Under the pieces are notes generated by a model that did no database searches, was not told where the DNA came from, and was given only the letters and a program-made list of their open reading frames with translations. Of a stretch of 64,000 nt of DNA, positions 3,897-56,907 are shown piece after piece. Both the position numbers and the translations under genes were made by a program. The DNA comes from a virus: IMG/VR virus record IMGVR_UViG_3300042384_001501, positions 1-64,000 of that record; one strand, given 5' to 3'. Within the stretch, counting starts at the first letter, position 1. Each line of letters begins with the position of its first letter.

Positions 3897-4289
3897 ATGA
3901 AATACAAAATCACAAAGGAACAATATTCTAAACTTGTCTATACGTTAATTGAAGCATTTTTTAAGGATGTTAAATTTTACAAAGATGATGGTGGGGGTTA
4001 TTTGACTTATGATATTACTGTTGATGGTGAGGACACTGCTTTTATTCACACAAAAAAAAGTCCTCATATATCTGAGGGATGTAAAAATGAACTTGTAATA
4101 TATGATGAAACTATATTAAAGATAACAAACTTTGTTCCGATTTTTAGGAAGAAGGTATTCTCAAAAATACTCATTAAATATTTTTCTGATATTACTGGTG
4201 AAGATATTGATTGTATTAATTTTGATATGAAACTTCATGGAAGTGATGATACAATTATATATACAAAAAAATTCAAAAAGAAAAAATAA
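3897..4289 (+). CDS. Hypothetical small alpha/beta protein (130 aa)
   Basis: It starts MKYKITKEQYSKLVYTLIEA, continues FFKDVKFYKDDGGGYLTYDI and ends in a very basic KKFKKKK tail. It shares its N-terminal helix and the FKD motif with the gene at 3570, and has the helix-strand-helix-strand plan of other small proteins here. It has its own TATTTAT element, and a repeated T/C-run element follows its stop. No function is recognised. Confidence 0.75.
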   Translation: MKYKITKEQYSKLVYTLIEAFFKDVKFYKDDGGGYLTYDITVDGEDTAFIHTKKSPHISEGCKNELVIYDETILKITNFVPIFRKKVFSKILIKYFSDITGEDIDCINFDMKLHGSDDTIIYTKKFKKKK

Positions 4290-4326
4290 TTTTTTTCGTT
4301 GTTCCAATTCCCCTTTTTTTATTTTT
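4286..4326 (+). repeat. Repeated intergenic element, copy 2
   Basis: T-run, CGTTGTTCCAATTCCCC, T-run; the same order as at 1803-1846 and 5425-5471. Confidence 0.55.
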
Positions 4327-4423
4327 AAGATATATTTATATATAAATTAAACATATTATGAAAAAGGTTTTAAGATTAACAGAATCAGATTTGATTAAAC
4401 TTGTTAAGAGGATTGTTAAAGAA
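4321..4423 (+). repeat. Promoter-plus-tag cassette, copy 1
   Basis: From ATTTTTAAGATATA to the end of the tag this segment aligns without gaps to 4681-4783 (offset 360). It covers the late-type promoter, leader, ATG and the class A tag. Confidence 0.75.
4333..4339 (+). promoter_or_regulatory. Phage late-type promoter motif TATTTAT
   Basis: AAGATATATTTATATATAA, 18 bases before the ATG at 4358. Confidence 0.5.
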
Positions 4424-4606
4424 GACGTTTCTTCAACTCCTACTACAACACAAAAAACCATTTCTTTGGATTGTGCAAGAAAAACTGCTGACAATATTGC
4501 GTTAACTACCCAACAGGTTAATAAATGGTGTCCTAAAGTAATTGTTAAACCATCACCACAACCAACACAAAGTAACCCAACACAACAGTTAGGAACTGCT
4601 ATTTAA
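4358..4606 (+). CDS. Tagged protein, class A tag (82 aa)
   Basis: The protein opens MKKVLRLTESDLIKLVKR followed by IVKE|D, the class A tag with its [ILV]-x-E exit near residue 22. The remaining 60 residues are Thr/Pro/Gln-rich around a short helix (LDCARKTADNIALTTQQVNKWC). If the tag is a capsid-targeting propeptide, the mature protein would be a small packaged peptide. Its promoter and tag are duplicated 360 bases downstream before an unrelated protein body. Confidence 0.8.
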   Translation: MKKVLRLTESDLIKLVKRIVKEDVSSTPTTTQKTISLDCARKTADNIALTTQQVNKWCPKVIVKPSPQPTQSNPTQQLGTAI

Positions 4607-4622
4607 ACTAATTTTTTGTAGT

Positions 4623-4688
4623 ATGAAAAAATTCATTATAACAGAAGAAGAGAAAAATAGAATTCTAGTGAGGGGTTTTTATTTTTAA
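4623..4688 (+). pseudogene. Stranded class B tag remnant (21 codons)
   Basis: ATG at 4623 encodes MKKFIITEEEKNRIL and then runs into VRGFYF and a stop at 4686-4688. The first 15 residues are a perfect class B tag like those at 8459 and 12107, but the cargo is missing; the frame dies at the point where the duplicated promoter-tag cassette (4681) begins. It looks like the stump of a tagged gene replaced by recombination, though a real micropeptide cannot be excluded. Confidence 0.55.
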
Positions 4689-4783
4689 GATATATTAATA
4701 TATAAATTAAACATATTATGAAAAAAATTGTAAGATTAACAGAATCCGATTTGATAAGACTTGTTAAAAAAGTTATCAAAGAA
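4681..4783 (+). repeat. Promoter-plus-tag cassette, copy 2
   Basis: Second copy of 4321-4423. The leader before the ATG is nearly identical (TATTAAT replaces TATTTAT) and the class A tag codons are largely conserved; similarity ends at the tag boundary. Confidence 0.75.
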
Positions 4784-5071
4784 CAAGAATTTGAAGATGA
4801 TGAATTTGACATGGGTATGAATTCTGATTGTGATAGAATTATTGATGAAATGGAATACATTTTTCAAGATTTTATGAGATATTACAAAAACTCATCACCT
4901 GATACGAAATCTATCTTAGGAGCTTCGGAGATGTACCACGACTTAGAATCAGAACTTGGTGGTCTTCTTGATATGGCTGAAGAAAATGATTGTGAAAATC
5001 GTTACGATATTGAATCAACGTATGAGGAACTTTTAGATATGTTTCGTCGACATACCGAACTTGATTTATAA
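4718..5071 (+). CDS. Tagged protein, class A tag (117 aa), acidic
   Basis: It opens MKKIVRLTESDLIRLVKK then VIKE|Q at about residue 22, the most typical class A tag in the window. The body is acidic and helical (EFEDDEFDMGMNSDCDRIID, then repeated Glu-rich helices). No enzyme motif is visible. A clear intrinsic terminator follows at 5095. It is interpreted as a packaged protein of unknown role. Confidence 0.8.
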   Translation: MKKIVRLTESDLIRLVKKVIKEQEFEDDEFDMGMNSDCDRIIDEMEYIFQDFMRYYKNSSPDTKSILGASEMYHDLESELGGLLDMAEENDCENRYDIESTYEELLDMFRRHTELDL

Positions 5072-5094
5072 ATTTAAAATTACAAGAATATTTA

Positions 5095-5127
5095 AAACCC
5101 CATTCCTAATAAGAGTGGGGTTTTTTT
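5095..5127 (+). terminator. Intrinsic terminator
   Basis: CCCCATTC/GAGTGGGG stem followed by a T7 run. Confidence 0.85.
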
Positions 5128-5145: not shown

Positions 5146-5427
5146 ATGCAAAAACCCATTGAAAAAATCGTTAGTCATATTGTGGAAAAGAAATATCCAT
5201 TGTTTGGGGATATTAATGTGAGACCTGAGAAGAATCCGTTTCGTGATTACACATATGGGGAAAGTGGTGTAATTTATGACGTTACCCTTATTATTGATTT
5301 TAAAACATTCCTTATGGAATATTGGGAGAGGTGGGATGAAATTAAAAATTTAGTTATTGATACAATTAAATTTCTTGGTATTGATAACACCATTAGAGTT
5401 AAGATTAAGTATTCCGATAAATTATAA
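5146..5427 (+). CDS. Hypothetical small alpha/beta protein (93 aa)
   Basis: It starts MQKPIEKIVSHIVEKKYPLF with an N-terminal helix, then a strand (VIYDVTLIIDFKTFL), a helix (WDEIKNLVIDTIKFLG) and a final strand (IRVKIKYSDKL). The same topology recurs in at least six other genes here, suggesting an expanded family. Unlike most relatives it uses a host-type promoter. Function unknown. Confidence 0.8.
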   Translation: MQKPIEKIVSHIVEKKYPLFGDINVRPEKNPFRDYTYGESGVIYDVTLIIDFKTFLMEYWERWDEIKNLVIDTIKFLGIDNTIRVKIKYSDKL

Positions 5428-5471
5428 AAATTTTTTTCTCCGTTGTTTCAATCCCCCCACCCCCTTTTTTG
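5425..5471 (+). repeat. Repeated intergenic element, copy 3
   Basis: T-run, CTCCGTTGTTTCAAT, C-rich run, T-run; closest to copy 1 at 1803. Confidence 0.6.
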
Positions 5472-5481
5472 TTTTAAGATG

Positions 5482-5502: not shown

Positions 5503-6354
5503 ATGAATAAAGTTGTTAGATTAACTGAATCAGATTTGGTTAAAATAGTTAAAAGAGTTATTAAAGAAGAAAACAATCCTAATACATTAGTTTCAACAGA
5601 AGGGGATAAAGTGAAAAATTATTACCTACAACATTTTTCAAAACCTGAAACCATTGATAAGTTTAAAAATAAAAATAATATTGATAAAATAAAAAAATAT
5701 ATCCCAACAATAAAGTATATTTTATACTCAGAAAACAGTGGCGTCGGCGGATTTGTTAACCAAAATAAACCTGGAATTATAAATTTGAACACTAATAATC
5801 TAATTCGTGACATTAAGGGATTTGTAACGTCTAAAGGGACTTACTTGTATGATACAATTCTGCATGAAATGGGTCACTTGATTGATTTCAAATTACAGGA
5901 ATTGGGTGAAAATACAATTGCAAAATCATCAGGGTATTATAAACCAACTGGAGGTAAAGATGATTATGTTTTCTCAGACGTAGAGACTTATGCGAGAGTT
6001 CAAAGATTAAGAGAGACTTTGGGACTTAATCCAAACGCTAATGGAGAAGAAATTAAAAAGAAATTAATTGAGTTTATCAAACTTAAAAAATTAACTTTTC
6101 CAAATGTTAAGATACAAGATGTTAAATCACCTACTACAGGGTTATTATTTACACCAACACAAACATCCAAAGGTGAGTTATCTGACCTTTGGAAATTTTA
6201 TTCTCCAATTAGAATTAATAATACAACTGTTCCTGATATTAGTGCGTTATTCGCTAAGTTCTCATCTTATCGAAATGGTGGCTTAGTATTTCTTAATCTT
6301 GACGTAATCGGTAGAGTGAATATTACAACTAAAGGATTACCCGATACAAAGTAA
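5503..6354 (+). CDS. Tagged zinc metallopeptidase (HExxH), 283 aa
   Basis: The class A tag MNKVVRLTESDLVKIVKR ends in VIKE|E near residue 22. The body carries LYDTILHEMGHLIDFKLQEL, a gluzincin-type HExxH at residues 121-125 with zinc ligands His121 and His125 and catalytic Glu122, and a likely third ligand in FSDVETYARV about 35 residues later. The family hydrolyses peptide bonds. A tagged protease fits an ejected effector acting on host proteins, or a virion-internal protease. The substrate is unknown. Confidence 0.8.
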   Translation: MNKVVRLTESDLVKIVKRVIKEENNPNTLVSTEGDKVKNYYLQHFSKPETIDKFKNKNNIDKIKKYIPTIKYILYSENSGVGGFVNQNKPGIINLNTNNLIRDIKGFVTSKGTYLYDTILHEMGHLIDFKLQELGENTIAKSSGYYKPTGGKDDYVFSDVETYARVQRLRETLGLNPNANGEEIKKKLIEFIKLKKLTFPNVKIQDVKSPTTGLLFTPTQTSKGELSDLWKFYSPIRINNTTVPDISALFAKFSSYRNGGLVFLNLDVIGRVNITTKGLPDTK

Positions 6355-6414: not shown

Positions 6415-6753
6415 ATGGGAAATATTCAAGATTATAAACAAAGATTTTTTAATTTGATGGAATCAACAATAGGGGACGTTAAGCCTCTAATAAATGAAGA
6501 CGAATCTACAACTAATAAATTCTGTTGGGAAAATCCTGAATGGAAAGAAATTGATGACGATGTTAAATTCAAAGGTACATGGAAACTTCAGGGTAACAAA
6601 GTGTTATTAACATATGAACGTTCAATTATGTCTCTTAGTAATACTGAAGTAATAATTAAACCAAATGGATTTGATACGTGGAGAGGTAATGTAACTTCAG
6701 GTAAAATTGAAAAATCATATTCGGGGGACTACACAATTTGTTTCTTTAAATAA
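6415..6753 (+). CDS. Tagged small beta-rich protein (112 aa)
   Basis: The N-terminus MGNIQDYKQRFFNLMEST leads to IGDVKPLINE|D at about residue 29. The piece [IL]GD[VA]KPLI[NS]E is shared with the gene at 8459 (LGDAKPLISE|Q). The body WKEIDDDVKFKGTWKLQGNK and following looks like a small beta barrel (lipocalin-like, low confidence). It is 21 bases upstream of the tagged gene at 6775, so the two are probably co-transcribed. Confidence 0.75.
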   Translation: MGNIQDYKQRFFNLMESTIGDVKPLINEDESTTNKFCWENPEWKEIDDDVKFKGTWKLQGNKVLLTYERSIMSLSNTEVIIKPNGFDTWRGNVTSGKIEKSYSGDYTICFFK

Positions 6754-6774: not shown

Positions 6775-7851
6775 ATGAAAAAATTATTATTTGTTACTGA
6801 AAACGAAAGGCAAACAATTTTAGAAATGCATGGGTTCATTAATAACCCAAATGTTATTAATGAGGAATATACCGAATTAGAAAAAATATTTAAAAACCCG
6901 TATGCCGAATTAGAAAAAATATTTATAAACCCTTTTGTTAAAGGTTTGGAAAAATCAAACCCAAAGGCGTTTGATGAATTAAGTAAAATTTTAGATAGAA
7001 GAGCCGATGAAACATTATCAGGAGCTTTTGATAGGGTCTTATCAAAAGCGGTTGATAATGGAAGTAGAGCAGATGGAGTTAATGCGCTTAAATTTTGTAA
7101 ACAATTAAGTTTAATTAATGACCAATTTGCTGAAGAATTTTATAAAAATCAAATTGAAGTAATTAATAAAATTAGATTACATCCTGAATATTCCAAACAA
7201 TGGGAACTAATGGTTAAAAATAATTTTGGTGAAAAAGTTCTTGAGAAATATAAAAAAAATAATATGGGTTCAGTTAAACCTGTTGAAAAAACCCCAACTG
7301 AGCCTAAACCATCTGAGAAACCTGCCGAACAAAAACCAACCCCACCTAAACCTGCGGAACAAGTAAAACCTCAAACGGGAATATCAATAGGAAATTTCAC
7401 AGTTAGGCCACTAAATGACGGTTCAAAACTTGCCAAATTTATGGACGCATTTTTTGAAAAAGTTTTTTACGAAGGAAATAATAAATTTATGAACGGATTT
7501 CCAAAAGAAGTTATAAAACAATTTACACCTGAAACAAAAAGTTACTTATTACAATTATTAGATATTGTTAAACGAAAAAACCTTACAAGTGGTCTTGAAC
7601 AGGGTTTTAAGTCCGATTATGGTCGTTTACCTAAAACTGTTGATGAGGAAATTGAGATGTTATCGAACAATTTTTGGGGTGGAAAGTCACAGTTTGGAGG
7701 TCGTAGACAAGGGGGAATACAAGGAATGTTAGGCGAAGCACCCATTCCGACAGAGAATGTTTTGGACAACCTTACGAATACTACGATGTCACCGAGTCAA
7801 AAAAAAGAACTTATGGAATACGGTCACAAAATTGAGGTGTTTAAAAAATAA
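6775..7851 (+). CDS. Tagged protein, class B tag (358 aa), paralogue of 23677
   Basis: It opens MKKLLFVTENERQTILEMHG with NVINE|E at about 27-31. Roughly the first 160 residues match the protein at 23677 (shared FDELS, FCKQLS/FCRKLS, NDQFA and GEKVLEK blocks), a helical domain. A Pro/Lys/Glu-rich linker (EKTPTEPKPSEKPAEQKPTP) separates it from a different C-terminal domain. A short duplication near the tag repeats AELEKIF. Probably a packaged multi-domain protein; function unknown. Confidence 0.8.
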   Translation: MKKLLFVTENERQTILEMHGFINNPNVINEEYTELEKIFKNPYAELEKIFINPFVKGLEKSNPKAFDELSKILDRRADETLSGAFDRVLSKAVDNGSRADGVNALKFCKQLSLINDQFAEEFYKNQIEVINKIRLHPEYSKQWELMVKNNFGEKVLEKYKKNNMGSVKPVEKTPTEPKPSEKPAEQKPTPPKPAEQVKPQTGISIGNFTVRPLNDGSKLAKFMDAFFEKVFYEGNNKFMNGFPKEVIKQFTPETKSYLLQLLDIVKRKNLTSGLEQGFKSDYGRLPKTVDEEIEMLSNNFWGGKSQFGGRRQGGIQGMLGEAPIPTENVLDNLTNTTMSPSQKKELMEYGHKIEVFKK

Positions 7852-8458: not shown

Positions 8459-8890
8459 ATGAAACATCTTTTAAATAACATTTCTGAAGAAGAAAAAAAC
8501 AGAATCCGTGAACAACACACAGGAGGTAAAAAAATCGTAATTGAAAACTTTAATAAATTGTTGAATAGCAAGTTGGGTGATGCTAAACCATTGATTAGTG
8601 AGCAAAAAACTGAAGACCCAACTAAAGACATGTATAGTGTTTTAATTGGTTATTTAGTTAAACTTTCAGAAGATGGAGGTAAAAAAGGAATCCAAGGATT
8701 GGATGACATGGCGGCAATCAAAGAAACGAGAATGTATTTTGAAGCGTTGAGGGATGGAAAAACCCCAAAACCTTTGAGTAAACCTGCTGAAATTGTTAAA
8801 AATTATGCAATGGCCGAAACAAGAAAAATGCAAGGTCAAGAATTAGTTGCTTTAAAACAGTATGGTGAGAACGTTAAAACTAAACTTTAA
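8459..8890 (+). CDS. Tagged protein, class B tag (143 aa)
   Basis: It opens MKHLLNNISEEEKNRIREQH, a clear class B tag, and continues to KLGDAKPLISE|Q near residue 49, the second shared exit motif (compare 6415). The body is helical and Lys-rich (DMAAIKETRMYFEALRDGKT). No enzyme motif is seen. Its stop overlaps the next start (TAATG), indicating translational coupling with 8890. Confidence 0.8.
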   Translation: MKHLLNNISEEEKNRIREQHTGGKKIVIENFNKLLNSKLGDAKPLISEQKTEDPTKDMYSVLIGYLVKLSEDGGKKGIQGLDDMAAIKETRMYFEALRDGKTPKPLSKPAEIVKNYAMAETRKMQGQELVALKQYGENVKTKL

Positions 8891-11684: not shown

Positions 11685-12110
11685 ATGAAAATTTCTTTAC
11701 ACGAAAACATTGAAAGAATTAAGTCATTATTAAATGTTAATGAACAAGCTGGCTCCGCACCTTGTAAACAACCCAATCAGATAAAAACAACTTCAGGTGA
11801 GACCGAACTCATGGGATATATTTTAGATGTTCTTGATGATAACAATATAAATTTAAAAAATTGTAAAGATAGAAAATGTATTGATGATAAAATGTTGGCT
11901 GAAAAAATCATAAGTGAGTTACTTAACTCTTTAGTTGATAAAAGAGATTTGGGTACTGAGTTAAGTTCTGAGAACAAAAGAAATTTTGACTACTACACTA
12001 AAATAATGAGAGGGATATTTCCAACGTATAATAAAGCTCACTACAATAGAGGCACATGCGCCATGAAATCAAAAGTTAGTAAAACAACTACAACAACATA
12101 TTATAAATGA
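11685..12110 (+). CDS. Tagged protein (141 aa), HENIERIKSLLNVNE variant tag
   Basis: The N-terminus MKISLHENIERIKSLLNVNE|Q is a variant tag closing in V-N-E; its ERIKSLL core resembles ILNRIKLL in 21803 and IERVKKLLNE in 43141. The body contains paired cysteines (NCKDRKC) and a helical segment but no recognised domain. It overlaps the cell-wall hydrolase gene at 12107 by four bases (ATGA), so the two are coupled and may work together. Confidence 0.75.
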   Translation: MKISLHENIERIKSLLNVNEQAGSAPCKQPNQIKTTSGETELMGYILDVLDDNNINLKNCKDRKCIDDKMLAEKIISELLNSLVDKRDLGTELSSENKRNFDYYTKIMRGIFPTYNKAHYNRGTCAMKSKVSKTTTTTYYK

Positions 12111-13219
12111 TTATGAAAACAAATTTATTTGAAATTAGTCAAGACGAAAAAAACAGAATTTTAAACCTTCATGAAGGTCACACAAAAAATCATTATTTAA
12201 ATTTAATTAATGAAGAATCAACGTACAACCCTAAGTCAGAAGCAATTCAAAAAAAATTAAGTGAATTAGGTTACGGTAAAATTGTTGGAAGTCCTGATGG
12301 TAAATACGGACAAAAAACAGCTTGTGCAGTTGCTAAATTCCAAGAGGACAACAATTTAATCGTTGATGGTAAGGTTGGTAAAATAACTGCTACAAAACTT
12401 GGGGTTGATGCTTATTTTCCTAAAGGTGTTAGTATTATTTCTTGTGGTACCAAAAATACTGACAATAAACAAAAAGTTACTGATGACTCAGGTAAACAAA
12501 ATTGTCAGTCAGTTTTACCTGAAACATGTTCAAAAATTAGTCCAAATAAGGAAACTACTATTGGTAATGGTGGAAGTGAGGGTTGTTCACAATATGTTGG
12601 ACTGTCTATAGGTGAAAAATTAGGTGATGCTTGGAAAGCCTTTAACGCGGCTAAAAAATACGGAGTTAAATATAATATGTTTACAGACGGCTCAATTGAT
12701 TGGAATAATGTTAGGAACAAAATGAAATCCAATAAAATAAATTCATCAACTTGTGATTGTTTTACTGAGGAAGGTGAAAGTAAAGATAAATCTTGTAGTT
12801 CAGGTTCTGAGATTGCCAAAACTATTAGTTCATTTTATCCGTCATCGTCTAATTTCAGTAATGGTTCGTTGAAAGTAGGTGATATAGTTGGTATGTACTA
12901 CAGAGATTCAGGTAACAAAGGTAAAGCTTTTTGTGAAAGAGCTTCACAAAGAGGATTAGATAGTAGTGGTAATGTTAAAGATACTGACCCATTTACATTT
13001 AATACCCACGTTGGATATGTTGGAGCGATTAAAAATGGTGTACCGATAATTTATCATAGTGTACACGGAACAAGATTAGCGACACCGGCAAACCAATTAA
13101 AAAGTAAAAATGGTAGTGCGATGATTGTTTGGGTAACAGGCGGACCTAAATCTGCTGAACAAGATTCTACAAAACCAAAAGATGTATCTTGGTATGAAAA
13201 AATATCAGATTGGTTTTAA
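12107..13219 (+). CDS. Tagged cell-wall hydrolase: PG-binding domain plus NlpC/P60-like domain
   Basis: A class B tag (FEISQDEKNRILNLHEGH) exits at NLINE|E near residue 36. Residues about 40-100 form a PG_binding_1 domain (SEAIQKKLSELGYGK, PDGKYGQKTACAVAKFQ). The C-terminal domain has a likely catalytic Cys in SEGCSQYV (about 160) and His in FNTHVGYVGAI, followed by IIYHSVHG, resembling NlpC/P60 or CHAP cysteine peptidases that cut peptidoglycan stem peptides. A second in-frame ATG at 12113 is an alternative start. A tagged wall hydrolase fits entry through the peptidoglycan. Confidence 0.75.
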   Translation: MIMKTNLFEISQDEKNRILNLHEGHTKNHYLNLINEESTYNPKSEAIQKKLSELGYGKIVGSPDGKYGQKTACAVAKFQEDNNLIVDGKVGKITATKLGVDAYFPKGVSIISCGTKNTDNKQKVTDDSGKQNCQSVLPETCSKISPNKETTIGNGGSEGCSQYVGLSIGEKLGDAWKAFNAAKKYGVKYNMFTDGSIDWNNVRNKMKSNKINSSTCDCFTEEGESKDKSCSSGSEIAKTISSFYPSSSNFSNGSLKVGDIVGMYYRDSGNKGKAFCERASQRGLDSSGNVKDTDPFTFNTHVGYVGAIKNGVPIIYHSVHGTRLATPANQLKSKNGSAMIVWVTGGPKSAEQDSTKPKDVSWYEKISDWF

Positions 13220-23676: not shown

Positions 23677-24714
23677 ATGAAAAAAATATTATCTGTTAAT
23701 CCAAACGAAAAACAAAGAATTTTAGAAATGCATGGGTTTACAAATAACTCAAATGTTATTAATGAACAATATAGTGAATTACGAAGTAAAATCGTAGACA
23801 AGTTTGTTTCAGGATTAGAAAAAAACGATGTCAAGGCATTTGATGAGTTAAGTACCATTATAGGTAGAAAGTCCAATGAAGCATTAGACGTAGCCTTTAA
23901 TAGAGTATTAGATTTGGCGGTTAATGGAGGTAGAGTAGAAGGGGCTAAAGTTATGCAATTTTGTAGAAAATTAAGTTCATTTAACGACCAATTTGCTCAA
24001 AAATTTTATGAAAATCAAATTAAAATAATTGATAAAATTAAACAAAAATACCCTAATGACTGGGAAAAATTGGTTAAAACCAATTATGGTGAAAAAGTTC
24101 TTGAAAAGGCTAAAAAAGGAGCGTCGTCCTCCTCCTCCTCTTCATCAAAATTAGATGAATTAGGAATTGCTACTCAAATTCAAAATTATTTAAATCCTAA
24201 TAGATTTGATGGTTTAAGTAGACAAGCATTTGATGCTCAATTTGTACTTACAAAAAATAATTTATCACGTACATCTGACATATTTTCAAGTCAAACATTA
24301 TTAAATGACGTGTTTGGTACTATTTTTTCAAAAAACGCCACAGCTGACCAAATCCAAGAGTTACTTAATGCTATGAGTATGAAAATAGGATTTAATAAAG
24401 AACAACAAGAAGTTTTTGACAAATTATTAAATTATTTTTCAACAGGTAAAAACCCTTCATTTGGAAAATATCAAACTCCATGGTTAAATGACCTCGCAAA
24501 TATGGGTTCAAGTGCTTGGAATGGTGCAAAACCTATTGTTGAACCTATTGCCGATAAATTAGTAAAGAAAGGTATTACGGCTTTAAAAATTGCGGGAATT
24601 ACTGTTGGGGTTGTAGTTTTCTTAGTTATTGTTTTACTATTTGCGGCAATTTCAGCGTTAAGAGGTGGAGGAAGTAAGAAAGAAAGAAAATATAATTCTA
24701 AGTACGAAGACTAA
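23677..24714 (+). CDS. Tagged protein, class B tag (345 aa), paralogue of 6775
   Basis: MKKILSVNPNEKQRILEMHG and NVINE|Q reproduce the start of 6775, and about 130 further residues align (FDELS, FCRKLS, NDQFAQKF, GEKVLEK). After a poly-Ser linker (eight serines) the C-terminal half differs and ends with a membrane segment (AGITVGVVVFLVIVLLFAAI) and a basic tail. The pair shows a shared tagged module joined to different effectors. It follows 21803 by 23 bases in the same operon. Confidence 0.8.
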   Translation: MKKILSVNPNEKQRILEMHGFTNNSNVINEQYSELRSKIVDKFVSGLEKNDVKAFDELSTIIGRKSNEALDVAFNRVLDLAVNGGRVEGAKVMQFCRKLSSFNDQFAQKFYENQIKIIDKIKQKYPNDWEKLVKTNYGEKVLEKAKKGASSSSSSSSKLDELGIATQIQNYLNPNRFDGLSRQAFDAQFVLTKNNLSRTSDIFSSQTLLNDVFGTIFSKNATADQIQELLNAMSMKIGFNKEQQEVFDKLLNYFSTGKNPSFGKYQTPWLNDLANMGSSAWNGAKPIVEPIADKLVKKGITALKIAGITVGVVVFLVIVLLFAAISALRGGGSKKERKYNSKYED

Positions 24715-28052: not shown

Positions 28053-28349
28053 ATGTTGTTTGACTTTGAAACATACATAAACTTATTAAAAAGTTTTGGT
28101 GAGGAAAAACTGACTGAACAAGAATCAACTCCCCCTCCTTCAGGCGGTGCATCAGGAGGAGGTTCTACACCTCCGGCTGCATACCCAACAGTTACTAAAT
28201 GGGAGAGTGGTCTAACAAGAGGTAAGGCAAATCAAATTGGTAATACTAAATGGGAGAGTGGTCTAACAAGAGGTAAGGCAAATCCAGTTAATAACAAAGA
28301 AAAATGGACAACAGGAATTAAACGAGGAAAAGCAAATACGTTATTATGA
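28053..28349 (+). CDS. Tagged repeat peptide with WESGLTRGKAN units (98 aa)
   Basis: MLFDFETYINLLKSFGEEKL then TE|Q gives a short tag with an L-T-E exit near residue 22. After a Pro/Gly/Ser linker the C-terminus holds three copies of a unit KWESGLTRGKAN (the third is KWTTGIKRGKAN). The unit is basic and could bind nucleic acid or pack against a partner. The first two copies are identical at DNA level. It overlaps the start of 28346, so it is coupled to the PG-binding protein. Confidence 0.75.
   Translation: MLFDFETYINLLKSFGEEKLTEQESTPPPSGGASGGGSTPPAAYPTVTKWESGLTRGKANQIGNTKWESGLTRGKANPVNNKEKWTTGIKRGKANTLL
28194..28233 (+). repeat. Direct repeat, copy 1 (40 bp, 51-bp period)
   Basis: ACTAAATGGGAGAGTGGTCT and the next 20 bases are identical to 28245-28284; both are within the coding region. 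Confidence 0.85.
28245..28284 (+). repeat. Direct repeat, copy 2 (40 bp)
   Basis: Exact copy of 28194-28233; a third, diverged unit follows in protein sequence. Confidence 0.85.
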
Positions 28350-29914
28350 AAAATACAGACTTAAAAAAAATTGTTAGAAAAGTTTTATTAGAAGCGGTGG
28401 ACACTTCATTGGTAAATAGAATAATTAAAAAATTAGATAGTTCTAGTTCTCAGTATGGTTGGACTCTTGGGGGAGGGACTGATGAGGATGCGTACGTTAG
28501 TGCGATACAAGAAATACCAAATTTTGAAACCGCGAAGGCAATCAACGACAAATTTAATTTAAGAGAATCAGTAGATGACGAATTTAATTTTGATAAAGAT
28601 GATGATTGGGAGTATGTTAGTCAAATTTTTGACCACATGGAAAGTATTGGGGTAAAAGTGATAAATCCAACTAATCAGGATTCTTTTGATTTTGATTTTT
28701 CAAAAAATAGGTCCACAATAGGTGGAGGTGATTCCTCTGACCAAGGAGGGGGACAAAAAACACCTGACAAAGAACAAGAGGTAGTTATTTCAAAAGGAAA
28801 ATGTAAAGATGCACCATCTCTTACTAGTATATGTTCAGGTTCGGCTTATTTAAAGAGTTGTATGAAAGGTATTAAAGGTTCTAAAGACGACGCAATATCT
28901 AAAGTACAAGAATTTTTAATAAGTAAAGGTTTTAAAAAAGTTTCAAAAACAGGGGAGGTAGATGCAATTTATGGTCCTTTAACTAAAGAAATGGTTAAAC
29001 AATATCAAACATCTGTTAATATAAAGGCCGATGGAATTGCCGGACCTCAAACTGTTTCAACTATGGGTATTTGTAAAGTCACTAATAATCAACAAGGTGG
29101 TACATTACCGGGACCATCACTACCAGGACCGTCACTACCAGGCCCTGACGGTGGTATACCTACAAAACCTGTTGACGACCCACTTGATGTTAAGGAAACC
29201 ATATGTAGACCTGCAGATAAACAAGTTATCACAGCTTATAATTCAATAGTTGATAATATAAAATCTGAAGAACCTAATTTTTTGAGGAGAGAGTGTCGAT
29301 TAGTAATTAATTATCAAATGGAACAAAAAGAACATTGTGATAATTTAGAAGAAGTAATATGTTTTTGTGGAACTAAAGCCAGTTCAGGTGACGACGGGTA
29401 TTCTTATATGGGAGAAAGAAAACAGTATTTAAAAAATTATGTTAAGACTTACTGTAAATCTGAATTTGTAAAAGATGATAATAAACCAATCACTGTAGAT
29501 AAAAATAGACCAATAATTCCCGGATGTCAAACACCTGGAAGTGTCATTGCAATTCTTCAACAGGAAGATGATAAATTAAGTAAAGAAGATTGTAAAATAT
29601 TATTTAATGAGGCGGTTAATTGGTATAACTCATGGAAAAAATGTGAAAGAGGGAAACACTCTCCAAATCCTGCGTACAAAGACAAATGTTTTTCTTGTCT
29701 AAATAGATATAATTTCAATTGGAAAGATTTAGGTAGTGGGGAAAATAAAGTTATGAAGATGTATAATTTTAATAAAAGAGAGATTAATAAAAAACAAAGA
29801 AGAGAACTTACAAGAATGGAATCAATTGAATCTTTAAATACCGCTCTTTTGTACATGAATTATGACATGAATAAAACTTTAACTGAAAATAAAAATATAA
29901 TTTTAAAAAAATGA
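28346..29914 (+). CDS. Tagged peptidoglycan-binding protein, annexin-like N-terminus (522 aa)
   Basis: MKNTDLKKIVRKVLLE|A is a tag with an L-L-E exit at about residue 16. Residues 30-110 (GGGTDEDAYVSAIQEIPNFE and onward) recall the GTDE helix repeat of annexin-like phage domains. Residues about 190-250 are PG_binding_1 (KVQEFLISKGFKKV, then IYGPLTKEMVKQYQTSVN). A PGPSLPGP linker and a Cys-rich C-terminal domain follow. The last 30 residues (MNYDMNKTLTEN) resemble the 21803 tag, an apparent C-terminal tag. Likely virion-associated and wall-binding. Confidence 0.75.
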   Translation: MKNTDLKKIVRKVLLEAVDTSLVNRIIKKLDSSSSQYGWTLGGGTDEDAYVSAIQEIPNFETAKAINDKFNLRESVDDEFNFDKDDDWEYVSQIFDHMESIGVKVINPTNQDSFDFDFSKNRSTIGGGDSSDQGGGQKTPDKEQEVVISKGKCKDAPSLTSICSGSAYLKSCMKGIKGSKDDAISKVQEFLISKGFKKVSKTGEVDAIYGPLTKEMVKQYQTSVNIKADGIAGPQTVSTMGICKVTNNQQGGTLPGPSLPGPSLPGPDGGIPTKPVDDPLDVKETICRPADKQVITAYNSIVDNIKSEEPNFLRRECRLVINYQMEQKEHCDNLEEVICFCGTKASSGDDGYSYMGERKQYLKNYVKTYCKSEFVKDDNKPITVDKNRPIIPGCQTPGSVIAILQQEDDKLSKEDCKILFNEAVNWYNSWKKCERGKHSPNPAYKDKCFSCLNRYNFNWKDLGSGENKVMKMYNFNKREINKKQRRELTRMESIESLNTALLYMNYDMNKTLTENKNIILKK

Positions 29915-32015: not shown

Positions 32016-32090
32016 TGGTACCCCCGTCTGGACTCGAACCAGAAATAACTGCTTAGAAGGCAGTGGGTATATCCCTTTACCTACAGGGGC
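32016..32090 (-). tRNA. tRNA-Arg (anticodon TCT)
   Basis: The minus strand folds as a standard cloverleaf: acceptor GCCCCTG with CGGGGGT, D-stem GGTA/TACC, anticodon stem ACTGC/GCAGT with loop CTTCTAA (anticodon TCT, reading AGA), T-arm TCTGG-TTCGAGT-CCAGA, discriminator A and encoded CCA. The acceptor stem has two G-T wobbles. AGA is the main Arg codon of this AT-rich phage, so the tRNA would support late translation. It lies downstream of three small minus-strand genes and may be processed from their transcript. Confidence 0.9.
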
Positions 32091-35148: not shown

Positions 35149-35541
35149 TGGTGGAGATGCCGGGGGTCGAACCCGGGTCCAAATAAGTAAGACATAAAAC
35201 ACTACACGTTTAGGTCATTGTTTTTCTAAACAATCCGAAACTTCACAATTCCCTTATTTTATAGTGGTTCGGTTTACTGAGAACTAATCCTCCACTTTGT
35301 TTCTTTTTGGGTAGAAACCACACCACAACTACGACTTCTGTTGCAAGGTTGTATGTCTGCCGACCCCTAGTAGGTTAATTTTAAATTAAGCTACAGATAC
35401 TTCTTCAGTACGGATTAAACCGATTGTAGAAAGTTTGTTGATAACGTTGCCGTTTATAATTTGAATCAGTTTAACGGAGTTAACTCAGCTCCGACGTGCG
35501 TTTTATGGCGTATCATACCTGTCAAAGCCAAAAACATCCCC
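35149..35541 (-). ncRNA. ssrA: tmRNA (transfer-messenger RNA)
   Basis: The ends pair as a tRNA-like domain: 5' GGGGATG with 3' CATCTCC, then ACCA with encoded CCA. The third pair is G-U, the alanine identity element. The 5' part reads GGCTTTGACAGG like the conserved GGATTCGACGGG, and the T-arm is CCGGG-TTCGACC-CCCGG. Length is 393 nt, normal for a one-piece tmRNA. It rescues stalled ribosomes by adding a peptide tag. The internal reading frame ends RTEEVSVA and TAA (35386-35388), not the usual ALAA. A near-consensus GTTCTTTG lies just upstream. Confidence 0.92.
35386..35451 (-). other. tmRNA tag-peptide reading frame
   Basis: Within the tmRNA, codons from about 35451 down to the TAA at 35386-35388 encode Gly followed by NVINKLSTIGLIRTEEVSVA. 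The exact resume codon is not certain; Gly at 35449-35451 is the best guess. The tag is long and ends VSVA. Confidence 0.65.
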
Positions 35542-48097: not shown

Positions 48098-49912
48098 ATG
48101 GCAGAAAAAAATTTTACAGTTTGGCAAAGATTGACACAGGCGTTTGGTCCAAATTCTTTATTGAATCAAGATTATCCTAGTTTAAAATTTGACAAAAAAG
48201 AACTTCTAAAAACAACTTCAAAAAGAGAGTATGAAAAAGAGTTGTTACAAGCTCAACAAACTTTTTATCTTTCGAATCAATGGACTAAAATTGAAAATAA
48301 TTTATATACTCAAGCAACATATTATGAGCCAACAAGATTATCGGCTTTTTATGATTATGAGTCTATGGAATTTACTCCTGAAATATCGGCAGCGTTAGAT
48401 ATCTACGCTGAGGAGTCAACAACTGTAAATGAGGATGGTTTTATGTTACAAATTTATTCTGAATCAAATAGAATAAAATCAATATTGGCCGATTTATTTA
48501 ATAATATTTTAGACATCAATACAAACTTACCAATGTGGACAAGAAACACATGTAAGTATGGTGATAACTTTGTATATATCAAATTAGACCCTGAAAAAGG
48601 TGTAATTGGTTGTATGCAATTACCAATCATCGAAATCGAAAGATTAGAAAGAGGTATGATGGCTAAAGGTAAGTCAATTGACGAGGACCCAACTAAAAAA
48701 CATTTAAAATTCACATGGAAACACAAAGACATGGAATTTAATACTTGGGAAATTGCTCACTTTAGATTATTGGGTGATGACAGAAGATTACCTTATGGTA
48801 CGTCTATGTTGGAAAAGGCTCGTCGTATATGGAAACAATTGTTATTATCTGAAGATGCTATGTTAATCTATAGAACTTCAAGAGCCCCTGAAAGACGTGT
48901 GTTTAAAGTATTTGTTGGAAACATGGATGATAAGGACGTTGAACCATATATCCAAAGAGTCGCAAATAAGTTTAAAAGAGACCAAGTAGTTGATTCTAAA
49001 ACAGGTAACGTTGATATGAGATTTAATCAAATGGCGGTTGACCAAGATTATTTTATTCCTGTACGTGACCCTGCACAAGCGTCTCCAATTGAAACACTAC
49101 CTGGAGCTCAAAACTTATCTGAAATTGCGGACATTGAGTATATCCAAAAGAAATTATTAACTGCGTTACGTGTACCTAAAGCTTTCTTAGGATTTGAGGA
49201 AGTTGTTGGTGATGGTAAAAACTTAGCGTTACAAGATATTCGTTTTGCAAGAACAATCAACAGAATTCAAAAGAGTATGTTGCAAGAACTTAACAAAATT
49301 GGTATTATTCACTTGTTTATGTTAGGATTTGAAGATGAATTATCTAATTTTAGATTATCATTAACAAACCCATCTAAACAAGCCGACTTGTTAATGGTGG
49401 ACATTTGGAAAGAAAAAATACTTCTTTACAAAGATATGGTTGCAGACCCTGGTTCAGGAATTGCTGCGGTATCACAGTCTTGGGCTAAAAAACATATCCT
49501 TGGATTTTCTGATGAAGAAATTAAACTCGATATTCAACAACAACGTATTGAAAAAGCAGTTGGTGAGGAGCTTAAGAAAACTGCTGAAGTCATAGTTAAA
49601 ACAGGTTTATTTGATAATATAGATAAACTATACGGTAAAAAAGAAGGTGAACCTGGCGGGGCTCCATCTGCACCGTCTGAGGGTGGTACACCTTCAGATT
49701 TAGGAGGAGGTGGTCCAATTGGAGGAGAAACCCCTCCACCACCCCCACCTGGAGGAGAAGCTCCCCCAACGGTACCTGAAAATTTAAATCCTAAGAATAA
49801 AGATTTAATTCTTGAAAAAGTTCTCAGAGAGGACGATGAGTTTGTGGACTTTGAAAAAAACAAAGATTCTATGAAAGAAATAAATGACACTTTAGAAAGA
49901 TTACTAAAGTAA
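48098..49912 (+). CDS. Portal protein (T4 gp20-like)
   Basis: The 604-residue protein has the features of T4-type portals: an N-terminal helical clip region, PTRLSAFYDYESMEFTPEIS and ALDIYAEESTT near 75-105, the WEIAHFRLLGDDRRLPYGTS wing segment near 215, RAPERRVFKVFVGNMDDKD, and ALRVPKAFLGFEEVVGDGKN near 360. The C-terminus has a Gly/Pro-rich linker. The dodecameric portal forms the DNA gate and nucleates head assembly. It lies directly upstream of the core, protease and capsid genes as in T4. Confidence 0.93.
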   Translation: MAEKNFTVWQRLTQAFGPNSLLNQDYPSLKFDKKELLKTTSKREYEKELLQAQQTFYLSNQWTKIENNLYTQATYYEPTRLSAFYDYESMEFTPEISAALDIYAEESTTVNEDGFMLQIYSESNRIKSILADLFNNILDINTNLPMWTRNTCKYGDNFVYIKLDPEKGVIGCMQLPIIEIERLERGMMAKGKSIDEDPTKKHLKFTWKHKDMEFNTWEIAHFRLLGDDRRLPYGTSMLEKARRIWKQLLLSEDAMLIYRTSRAPERRVFKVFVGNMDDKDVEPYIQRVANKFKRDQVVDSKTGNVDMRFNQMAVDQDYFIPVRDPAQASPIETLPGAQNLSEIADIEYIQKKLLTALRVPKAFLGFEEVVGDGKNLALQDIRFARTINRIQKSMLQELNKIGIIHLFMLGFEDELSNFRLSLTNPSKQADLLMVDIWKEKILLYKDMVADPGSGIAAVSQSWAKKHILGFSDEEIKLDIQQQRIEKAVGEELKKTAEVIVKTGLFDNIDKLYGKKEGEPGGAPSAPSEGGTPSDLGGGGPIGGETPPPPPPGGEAPPTVPENLNPKNKDLILEKVLREDDEFVDFEKNKDSMKEINDTLERLLK

Positions 49913-51352: not shown

Positions 51353-52072
51353 ATGCAAGATTTGAAAATTTTAGGTCCAAAAGATTCAGGTAAAGGAATA
51401 CTGATAGAAATGGATGCGGGATATATCTCACCGACAGAGTCTCGTAACTTGGCGGTAATACAAGAAAGTAAATCGGCTTTAGACTATTCAAAACCTTTTG
51501 AGTTCTATGCTGTTTTACAAAAATATAATACACCAAACAGAAATGGTAGAATTTATCCTGAAAAAATATTAAAAAGAGAAGTTGAAAATTATAAAAAAAA
51601 TTATATATCAAAAGGAACCGCTCTTTCGGAATTAAACCATCCTGAATCATCATTAATTGATTTAGATAGAGTTTCTCACATAATCACTGAAATGTGGTGG
51701 GATGGTCATATATTACTTGGTAAATTAAAACTTTTAACATCACCTGGGTTTCACGAAAGAGGAATTGTATCAACAAAAGGAGACCAAGCCGCAAATCTTT
51801 TAAGACAAGGTGTTACATTAGGGATATCATCAAGAGGAGTCGGTTCGTTAGTTAAAAAGGGGGAACAAAATGAAGTACAAGAAGATTTTGAACTAATTTG
51901 TTTTGACTTAGTATCATCACCATCTACTCCAGGAGCATATCTTTTCCAAGATATGGCTGATAAACACAAGTACGAAGAAAATTTGCAAGAAGAACAATTA
52001 CAAAAAGCTGAAAGGTCAACAACAAAATCACTTGATTTAATGAAAAAACTTAACGATTATTTATCAAAATAA
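51353..52072 (+). CDS. Prohead maturation protease (T4 gp21-like)
   Basis: The 239-residue protein carries the herpes-assemblin-like serine protease signature of phage prohead proteases: NRNGRIYPEKIL at 63-73, ALSELNHPESS with catalytic His96, and GVTLGISSRGVGS with catalytic Ser159 or Ser160, then DFELICFDLVSSPSTPGAY. T4 gp21 cuts after the E of [LI]-x-E in scaffold, capsid and internal proteins. It lies upstream of core (52399) and capsid (54042) genes. It is the proposed enzyme for removal of the tags found across this window. Confidence 0.9.
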   Translation: MQDLKILGPKDSGKGILIEMDAGYISPTESRNLAVIQESKSALDYSKPFEFYAVLQKYNTPNRNGRIYPEKILKREVENYKKNYISKGTALSELNHPESSLIDLDRVSHIITEMWWDGHILLGKLKLLTSPGFHERGIVSTKGDQAANLLRQGVTLGISSRGVGSLVKKGEQNEVQEDFELICFDLVSSPSTPGAYLFQDMADKHKYEENLQEEQLQKAERSTTKSLDLMKKLNDYLSK

Positions 52073-54041: not shown

Positions 54042-55835
54042 ATGGGAGCATTATTAGAATCAGGTCTTGTTGGTAACATCGGTCTTAAGCACCTTAAAGT
54101 TATCAAAGAAGATACTATTAACAAATGGGACAAATTAGGGTTCCTTGAAGGTCTTCGTGGCCACCTAAAAGAAAACGTAGCACAATTATATGAGAACCAA
54201 GCTTCTCACTTAATCAACGAAGCTACTTCAGACGGAAATTCAGGTTCATTTGAAACTGTTGTTTTCCCGATTATCAGACGTGTATTCTCTAAATTATTAG
54301 CGAATGAAATCGTTTCTGTACAAGCGATGAACTTACCAATCGGTAAATTGTTCTTCTTTGTACCAAAAATCCAAGGTTACACTGGTACAACTCAGTTAAC
54401 TAATGATACTACATCTCCATGGGCTCACAGAGCACCTGTAGGAGCACCTGGTAACTATCCTGGTGACCCAAATGCAGGTTATAATGATGCTGCAGCTTTC
54501 ACTAAGAATCTTTATGATTTGTATTATGAAGGTAATGAGGCGGCTTTAGACCCACCTGGATTGTATGATTACTCAAAAGGACGTTGGTCAGCGACTACTG
54601 CGGCGACTTTCACTCAAGTATGGACAGGACAAAGATTAGTACAATCAGGTTATCCAAGTACTACTTACAGAAAAGTAATCGTTTCTTTATCTGGTTTCAG
54701 TACTTCAGGTGAAGGTAGATTAGTTGGTCCTGAAGGTAACCAAATGGATACTGAGGATTTCTTAGCAAGTTTACGTTTAGTTTCTTCAGCAAATACACAA
54801 AACCCATTATTGTTCAGAGTTGTTACTCAAGTATACGGTCAAGGTATTGTTAACTACGGTTCACAATCACAAGCTGCTTGGCCAACTCAAGGTAACGGTG
54901 GTTACTACAATAACATTTGTAGTGCATCTGGTGTTATCTACTTAGAAGTTGATTTAAGTGTACCTTGTTCTGTAACTGATAACAGTTTAGATGGTTATTC
55001 AGGTTCTACATTCGCAGCTGACACAGCCACTGGTTCTATCATTGCGGTTTATAAAATCTATGAAGAACTTGAGTTTGAAGACGCTATCGGTGAAGTTTCT
55101 TTTGAATTAGATTCAGTAACTGTTACTGTAACTGAAAGAAAGTTAAGAGCTCAGTGGTCTCCTGAATTGGCTCAAGACGTTGCGGCATTCCACAACATCG
55201 ATGCTGAGGCTGAATTAACAGCTTTATTATCTGAACAAGTTGCGGCTGAAATCGACCGTGAAATCTTACGTGACTTACGTAAAGGTGCAGCTTGGCAATT
55301 ACGTTGGGATTACAACGGATGGAAGAGAGGAACTGCAGCTAACCCATTAACTCAGTACACTCAAAAAGACTGGAACCAAACATTGATTACTGCAATCAAC
55401 CAATTGTCAGCACAAATCCACAAGTCAACACTTCGTGGTGGAGCTAACTGGATTGTTGTATCTTCTGAGGTTTCTGCAATCTTCGATGACTTAGAATACT
55501 TCCACGTATCTAACGCTTCTCCTGAGCAAGACCAATACAACATGGGTATTGAGAGAGTTGGTACTTTAGCTGGTCGTTACCAAGTATACCGTGACCCTTA
55601 CTTCCCGCCAAACCAAGTTTTGATTGGACACAAGGGTACTTCATTACTTGACACTGGTTACGTTTACGCACCATATGTACCTCTACAATTAACTCCAACT
55701 ATGTACAATCCATTCAACTTCACACCTATCAAAGGTATCATGACACGTTACGCTAAGAAGATGGTTAACAACCGTTTCTACGGACGTATCACAGTTGACG
55801 GTGTACGTACATTTGACTTGAGAGAGTTAAGATAA
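54042..55835 (+). CDS. Major capsid protein (T4 gp23-like)
   Basis: The 597-residue protein has gp23 features: an N-terminal propeptide ending SHLINE|ATSDG (Glu60-Ala61, compare the gp23 cut after Glu65), then FETVVFPIIRRVFSKLLANE, VQAMNLPIGKLFFFVPKIQG, and late RDLRKGAAWQLRWDYNGWKR and YFHVSNASPEQ, DPYFPPNQVLIGHKGTS blocks. GC and codon choice are visibly higher and more even than its neighbours, as expected for the most expressed gene. It is followed by a strong terminator. Confidence 0.95.
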   Translation: MGALLESGLVGNIGLKHLKVIKEDTINKWDKLGFLEGLRGHLKENVAQLYENQASHLINEATSDGNSGSFETVVFPIIRRVFSKLLANEIVSVQAMNLPIGKLFFFVPKIQGYTGTTQLTNDTTSPWAHRAPVGAPGNYPGDPNAGYNDAAAFTKNLYDLYYEGNEAALDPPGLYDYSKGRWSATTAATFTQVWTGQRLVQSGYPSTTYRKVIVSLSGFSTSGEGRLVGPEGNQMDTEDFLASLRLVSSANTQNPLLFRVVTQVYGQGIVNYGSQSQAAWPTQGNGGYYNNICSASGVIYLEVDLSVPCSVTDNSLDGYSGSTFAADTATGSIIAVYKIYEELEFEDAIGEVSFELDSVTVTVTERKLRAQWSPELAQDVAAFHNIDAEAELTALLSEQVAAEIDREILRDLRKGAAWQLRWDYNGWKRGTAANPLTQYTQKDWNQTLITAINQLSAQIHKSTLRGGANWIVVSSEVSAIFDDLEYFHVSNASPEQDQYNMGIERVGTLAGRYQVYRDPYFPPNQVLIGHKGTSLLDTGYVYAPYVPLQLTPTMYNPFNFTPIKGIMTRYAKKMVNNRFYGRITVDGVRTFDLRELR

Positions 55836-56139: not shown

Positions 56140-56907
56140 TTAAGATAAACTATTCATTATATTTTCAATCTTAGATGCACTTCCAGAAACTGCACTATTT
56201 CTTCTTGACTGAACCGCAACTTTTTTAAGTTCAGATACTGACGTATTACCTTTTTCCACCTCTTCATTAATTGCGTTTGCAAATTTTTGAAAAAATCCTG
56301 AGCCATTCCAAGAAGCGTATATAAAGTGGAATAATAACGCGTTACTTTTCATAACAATATTTTTAGCCTCAGGAGATAAGTATTTATCAGCAAGTTTATT
56401 AAAATGAGGTTCCATTATTTTAACCACCAGGTCTATTAGTTTTTGTTCTAAATTACCACCTCTATAATAACGTTTCCAAACTCTTCTATTTTTATTCCCA
56501 TCAATCAAATTCCAAAATTCAACACCGGCATTGCTTGTATTTAATGTTCCTCCGTGTTTCCTATCAATTCCAAACATAGTTTCACCTGAGTCACCCATTC
56601 CTGAAGATTTATGCCATTGTGGGTTAAAATATCCACCTTCTAATTTATTAATAACTAATTCAGTCATTTTTTTAAAATCTCCTGATATTGTACCAAATGA
56701 ATTGTCTGAACCATTATTGGTAGATGTGTCAGATGTATTAGAAGAATCTTTATCATCTTTGTTAATTAATTTACCCCCAATTCTTTTTTTCACCCTATCA
56801 AGCATTGCTTGTATGAACGAATCACCAACAATATTACTATCATTTTGTTCAGTGATATTATAATTTACAATTTTTTTTAATTGTTCTTCAGTAACTTTAA
56901 TTTTCAT
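56140..56907 (-). CDS. Tagged lysozyme-like muramidase (GH108-like), 255 aa
   Basis: The N-terminus MKIKVTEEQLKKIVNYNITE|Q is a class A-like tag with an I-T-E exit at residue 20. After a Ser/Asn/Asp linker the C-terminal domain has INKLEGGYFNPQWHKSSGMG and DSGETMFGIDR, resembling GH108 muramidases (EGGY, G-G-x-T-x-x-G-I), with the Glu of LEGGY as likely acid catalyst. It would cleave glycan strands of peptidoglycan. It overlaps 56904 by four bases, so wall-degrading functions are paired. Confidence 0.75.
   Translation of the reverse strand: MKIKVTEEQLKKIVNYNITEQNDSNIVGDSFIQAMLDRVKKRIGGKLINKDDKDSSNTSDTSTNNGSDNSFGTISGDFKKMTELVINKLEGGYFNPQWHKSSGMGDSGETMFGIDRKHGGTLNTSNAGVEFWNLIDGNKNRRVWKRYYRGGNLEQKLIDLVVKIMEPHFNKLADKYLSPEAKNIVMKSNALLFHFIYASWNGSGFFQKFANAINEEVEKGNTSVSELKKVAVQSRRNSAVSGSASKIENIMNSLS

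Follow-up and report, generated by a model that had tools for sequence, protein, structure and literature searches.

A probable internal-protein island in an uncultivated T4-type phage, with cargo apparently exchanged at shared N-terminal tags

In bacteriophage T4, the prohead protease gp21 cleaves after L/I-x-E, internal proteins carry capsid-targeting propeptides of 10-19 residues, and capsid targeting sequences have been suggested to be an evolutionary device for loading new proteins (PMC9026906). Analyzed here as a control, the T4 ipII and ipIII genes are identical over the 30/30 nt encoding MKTYQEFIAE, and only 47% identical thereafter. Head proteins with N-terminal propeptides are also found in phiKZ and SPN3US, where cleavage occurs after x-x-E; the first 15 residues of SPN3US gp53 and gp54 are identical (PMC5694885). 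In T4-like phages, PeSL promoter-terminator cassettes mediate shuffling, as far as the work of Arbiol (2010) and Comeau (2014) is described in PMC4503421 and PMC3950731. Short-homology recombination and gene loss, including deletion of ipIII, have been observed during laboratory evolution of T4 (PMC9391042).

The window analyzed here is a stretch of 64,000 nucleotides, part of a virus record of 84,404 bp (IMG/VR IMGVR_UViG_3300042384_001501) from an uncultivated T4-type phage, the host of which probably belongs to the phylum Bacteroidota. Portal, prohead protease and major capsid protein genes of T4 type are all present (Table 1), and the gp21-type protease would be the enzyme cleaving the tags described below. 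The capsid protein features I-N-E in 42/42 relatives (LINE), followed by A in 41 and by S in one; the LINE/A motif appears to be the counterpart of the T4 gp23 site. The window also hosts a tmRNA gene (35149-35541, minus strand; tag peptide GNVINKLSTIGLIRTEEVSVA) and a tRNA-Arg(tct) gene (32016-32090, minus strand). The tagged genes listed in Table 1 likely belong to a hypervariable internal-protein island, in which capsid-targeting tags are joined to unrelated cargo and swapped by tag-centred recombination.

Table 1. Coordinates of island features and head genes in the window
Feature	Position	Strand	Basis and remarks
Recurrent intergenic spacer (TTTTTTCGTTGTTCCAATTCCCC..., TTTTTCCGTTGTTCCAATCCCCCCTACCCCCTTTTTT)	4281..4318	+	blastn matches to self and relatives
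Leader/promoter, cassette 1, ATATTTATA motif	4316..4357	+	41/42 identical to 4676-4717
Class A tag, copy 1 (MKKVLRLTESDLIKLVKRIVKE)	4358..4423	+	V-x-E end; class A profile E 4.8e-13
Cargo 1, 60 aa, T/Q/P-rich	4424..4606	+	among other phage contigs, in L005 only
Start of a class B tag (stump; 15 codons, MKKFIITEEEKNRIL), truncated ahead of the [ILV]xE end	4623..4667	+	class B comparison and profile
Run-on of the stump frame (VRGFYF, stop) into half-terminator and cassette 2 leader	4668..4688	+	terminator 5' arm missing
Terminator 3' arm and T-run (GTGAGGGGTTTTT) without 5' arm; upstream breakpoint of cassette 2	4668..4680	+	comparison with intact hairpin at L049:7940-7960
Leader/promoter, cassette 2	4676..4717	+	leader comparison
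Class A tag, copy 2 (MKKIVRLTESDLIRLVKKVIKE)	4718..4783	+	I-x-E end; profile E 3e-16; separate helix 9-24 (AF2 model)
Cargo 2, 95 aa, net charge -22, predicted 3-helix bundle	4784..5071	+	homologues in L007, L009, L006
Third class A gene, cargo with HExxH (LHEMGH)	5503..6354	+	L051/L026 genes have other cargo behind a leader and tag ~90% identical
Class C tagged gene (..RFFNLMESTIGDVKPLINE/D)	6415..6753	+	
Intact class B tagged gene	6775..7851	+	profile E 8.9e-7
T4-type portal protein (gp20)	48098..49912	+	Portal_T4 E 5.4e-77
gp21-type prohead protease	51353..52072	+	Peptidase_S77 E 7.6e-26; phrog_207 E 4.3e-49
gp23-type major capsid protein, LINE/A motif at residues 57-61	54042..55835	+	Gp23 E 1.2e-72

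As T4 ipI, ipII and ipIII, the genes analyzed combine a short shared N-terminal propeptide, an [IL]-x-E end and unrelated cargo; in both systems the DNA diverges sharply right after the tag, gp21-type protease and gp23 reside in the genome, and the genes form a hotspot varying between relatives, as known for T-even ip genes (PMC12373910, PMC9026906, PMC3012670). The tags measure 22-48 aa, versus 10 in T4, and are unrelated in sequence; homology to the T4 capsid targeting sequence MKTYQEFIAE was tested and not found, the I-x-E end only being common. Unlike in T4, several tag classes coexist, with up to 14 class A matches in one contig. In the proteins at issue here, packaging, cleavage and any anti-restriction activity are putative. 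The likeness to phiKZ and SPN3US lies in the propeptides of the (here presumed) head proteins; these phages differ in their S/A-x-E cleavage motif, mostly much longer propeptides and a diverged protease. With PeSL, as far as described in the sources cited, the locus shares repeated terminator-promoter DNA between small genes, the terminator stem-loop preceding the promoter, as homology for module exchange, cassette 2 keeping only half of its terminator. Unlike in PeSL, the repeated block extends over the coding tag, and the exchange of cargo takes place within a single reading frame. Gain and loss between short repeats of a T4-type genome link the island to the T4 laboratory case, in which internal-protein genes were lost; yet that case concerns a single phage in the laboratory, the present one is deduced from natural relatives. 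By analogy, the island would work like the T-even internal-protein system combined with PeSL-type shuffling.

Positions 4316-4423 and 4676-4783 make up a direct repeat, 88% identical over 108 nt without gaps, beyond which divergence is complete. The ungapped alignment of 4321-4423 with 4681-4783, reported in a previous sequence-only reading of this DNA, is real; similarity begins about 5 nt earlier and stops at the last tag codon. Identical nucleotides are 41/42 in the leader, 54/66 in the tag, 20/66 in the 66 nt that follow and 11/40 in the 40 nt that precede, and the switch to different cargo past the tag is as abrupt as had been described. Ten codons are changed between the tag copies at 4358 and 4718, four of them synonymously. 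The two leaders are mutual nearest neighbours, 98% identical, the next-best leader found anywhere reaching 88%. The tags, in contrast, are 82% identical to each other, and each is 89% identical to tags of other phages. Leader and tag have therefore separable histories, and promoter and tag, previously taken as one moving unit, do not travel as a fixed unit; the mismatch between their neighbours places crossovers within or at the start of the tag, and also at its end. The tag is most readily understood as a block of common homology, on either side of which promoter and cargo are exchanged.

The ORF found at 4623-4688, between the two cassettes, spans 21 codons (MKKFIITEEEKNRILVRGFYF, then a stop). 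Scored by a class B profile built without the window, it stands out with E 7.9e-9 among 1,364 ATG frames and is thus a true class B remnant; a chance ORF is ruled out by this value (8e-9 in round figures). Since intact class B tags continue beyond RIL to LYE or LHE, or to a YLNE- or INE-type end, the stump is the first half of a tag only, without the presumed cleavage site. What had been called a perfect class B tag is cut inside the tag; the notion of a cargo-less stump broken where cassette 2 begins holds in that the stump is real, but the break lies within the tag, which is joined to a half-terminator. In the relative L049 a complete hairpin (AACCCCATTCTTATGAGTGGGGTTTTTT, -16.5 kcal/mol) precedes the same kind of cassette at the same place; another hairpin follows the window gene at 4718. 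The window stretch at the half-terminator folds no better than shuffled sequences (z -0.99). The presence of a half-terminator ahead of cassette 2 sets the upstream boundary of the cassette within the terminator. ATTCT, a short match between class B codons and the terminator loop, may represent microhomology at the junction.

The same junction is found in contig L005, which is 99.97% identical to the window over 9,971 bp; L005 may derive from the same phage population, and argues therefore only weakly against an assembly error. Relatives carrying both cargos without any class B trace were not encountered, the two cargos occurring together in L005 only, where the stump is present as well; nor was an intact class B gene found in relatives at the exact site of the stump. 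Of about 231 unique tagged ORFs, only 2 are stranded tags. The second, L171:7058-7204, is a complete class D tag of 48 aa whose stop codon follows LINE immediately; its sequence overlaps with the beginning of a class B gene.

The TATTTAT motif is located upstream of 61% of tagged and 23% of untagged genes, versus 7% in shuffled sequences. It also precedes terL, gp20 and gp21 (upstream of 44742, 48098 and 51353), which suggests late expression; read on the opposite strand, the motif corresponds to the core of the T4 late promoter (TATAAATA). In this promoter motif, shared with terL, gp20 and gp21, the island seems to depart from PeSL as described in the sources above. Copies of the long intergenic spacer reside also near 1796-1844 and 5426-5473, and are scattered in the phage and its relatives as shared DNA outside the tag. 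One cargo was found under three unrelated leaders (leader identity 52-57%, cargo identity 89-93%), a result indicating that crossovers fall in or next to the tag, and that either side can be exchanged.

Cargo varies at one site between close relatives in the L080/L019, L011/L036, L036/L049 and L171/window comparisons. Over the region as a whole, identity between L080 and L019 is about 95%, and the two differ by exactly one tag-cargo unit, 395 bp long, that only L019 has; when they are aligned at the tag, identity is 98% as far as +69, where unrelated cargo begins. In L011 and L036, upstream gene, leader and tag are 94% identical up to +73, in L036 and L049 identity is 91% over 1,112 nt to +66, and both pairs differ thereafter. 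The cargo of L049 recurs in L036 1.6 kb downstream, behind another leader, as expected from a deletion between two tags. In L171, the closest syntenic relative (flanks 90-92% identical), window positions 3901-5120 have no counterpart, and another class A gene occupies the place. Among non-homologous pairs, the median point at which DNA identity is lost is +66, a figure fixed partly by construction, as the tag is what the pairs share; the breakpoint argument rests on the three pairs with homologous upstream genes (91-98% identity through upstream gene, leader and tag), in which cargo switches at +66 to +73, hence at the tag end, where breakpoints had been anticipated. The sequence-only reading of a captured recombination event stands insofar as the locus was built by recombination and tags gain new cargo, as seen in relatives; it proved too simple in treating promoter and tag as a fixed moving unit, and missed the putative function of the tag as a head-protein address. 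Tagged genes seemed less conserved than untagged ones, 3/10 versus 12/20 being shared with G003 and 1/10 versus 10/20 with G001, though numbers are small.

The tags are probably capsid-targeting sequences, and the genes analogues of those for T4 internal proteins. Class A tags end in [ILV]-x-E in 121/125 unique proteins from related contigs, the motif occupying the last conserved columns against a background of 2.7% per position; the E column carries 4.1 bits of information, the column two residues further 0.65, conservation collapsing after the motif. The motif is short, and conservation inside tag A is partly selected, because loci were retrieved by similarity to the tag itself. Class B independently shows the same end: in 71/79 proteins an [ILV]xE lies no more than 25 aa after the RI motif, as against 16/79 and 8/79 for control windows taken from these proteins. 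In classes C and D, the tag closes with PLI[NS]E. Several sequence classes converge on [ILV]-x-E, the signature of the T4 protease. The tag protein is conserved across phages in which tag DNA has diverged, which denotes selection on the peptide. Class C (6415-6753) and class D (8459-8890) tags have a common second half, GD[VA]KPLI[NS]E, as if tags were composite. The class B genes at 6775-7851 and 23677-24714, about 17 kb apart, look like paralogues (70% DNA identity over 487 nt).

The 12 records searched first contain 3-14 class A tags per contig; among contigs with a related capsid gene, most of them fragments, 8/12 have such tags. One locus only was found in cellular genomes (a collection of 84,980 species). 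The class A profile gave no match in T4 and in Flavobacterium phage immuto, the whole 4718 protein none among cultured phages (50,697 records), and a text search of the literature for the tag motif found nothing. Other short N-termini with [ILV]xE, and a VSE/A in the capsid protein, were seen by eye in immuto.

Three distinct homologues of the 4718 cargo were identified, under tag A in L007, under tag B in L009 and untagged in L006. The untagged homologue (L006:7700-8228) lies directly behind a class A gene with different cargo. The class B tag borne by this cargo in L009 fits the class B stump adjacent to the cargo in the window, which a class B origin of the cargo would explain. In the AlphaFold2 model of the 4718 protein, the tag forms a helix (residues 9-24), which a disordered linker connects to a cargo of three helices, most of it with pLDDT >90. 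Pfam, PHROGs and fold searches returned nothing significant on the function of this protein, and 0/8 tagged proteins of relatives matched in a PHROG search. The acidity of the 4718 cargo (-22) hints at a DNA mimic; acidity is not a general trait of cargo, the median net charge of class A being 0. VanY and peptidoglycan-binding domains reside in tagged genes (window 56904-58487, 12107-13219 and 28346-29914), and part of the cargo may therefore target the cell wall as the phage enters.

Tags might have some other N-terminal function, as a translation leader, a docking peptide for a host factor or a degron, the T4-like end being coincidental. Support for packaging comes from sequence and analogy, several non-homologous tag classes exist, and some tags are accompanied by conserved leaders, a pattern that an expression element would also produce. 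Yet several classes share an [ILV]-x-E end, which proteases of the type found in this genome are known to recognize, the peptide is conserved where tag DNA diverged, and T4 ipII/ipIII have the same arrangement; we consider this alternative unlikely. Nor is it easy to credit a plain tandem duplication of one class A gene with subsequent divergence of cargo, the stump being an unrelated decayed gene. Cargo DNA shows random identity (20/66) beside a tag at 82% and a leader at 98%, homologues of cargo 2 occur elsewhere under other tags while cargo 1 has none, and each tag is closer to those of other phages than to its neighbour. The leaders, mutual nearest neighbours at 41/42, do indicate local copying of at least this part. 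Leader, tag and cargo each have their own level of identity and their own nearest neighbours, for which reason duplication is rejected as a full account; its probability is judged low.

Instead of being debris, the stump could function as a short peptide that acts as a decoy or competes for the packaging site; its frame is intact from ATG to stop, and a further solo tag is found at L171:7058-7204. It would however be a peptide without tag end and cleavage site, which runs into leader DNA, has no TATTTAT directly ahead and is common only to L005, nearly the same phage; with only 2 solo tags among about 231 unique tagged ORFs, this possibility appears very improbable. Hardly any weight is given to a faulty assembly of two paralogous cassettes: assemblers can go wrong at repeats of about 100 nt, but repeats at 88% are distinguishable, and a chimera is disfavoured by the identical junction of L005 (99.97% over 9,971 bp).

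According to the preferred reading, that of an internal-protein island, each gene would consist of a short N-terminal capsid-targeting tag joined to unrelated cargo. As in T4, the tag would bind the prohead core and be cut off after [ILV]-x-E by the gp21-type protease, and the cargo would be left in the head and injected with the DNA. Tags and leaders, being repeated along the island, set up stretches of DNA homology; crossovers in or beside the tag, and at microhomology of the upstream terminator or T-run, add, delete and swap cargo and promoters, as relatives show. At the locus described, a class A leader-tag cassette entering at the terminator would have cut a class B gene inside its tag, leaving the stump. 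More tentatively, and as a possibility rather than an expectation, several independent, non-homologous address tags (A, B, C/D) might share the same protease site, with tag DNA serving as a recombination platform for the open-ended loading of injected proteins.

If the reading is right, injected phage proteins could be recognized by their tag sequences across a large, uncultivated group that defies annotation, and would likely be early anti-defence factors, as T4 Ip1-3. The locus would illustrate how the repertoire turns over, address tags at the protein level doubling as DNA homology for cargo swaps, and would lend sequence-level support to the suggestion on capsid targeting sequences made in PMC9026906.
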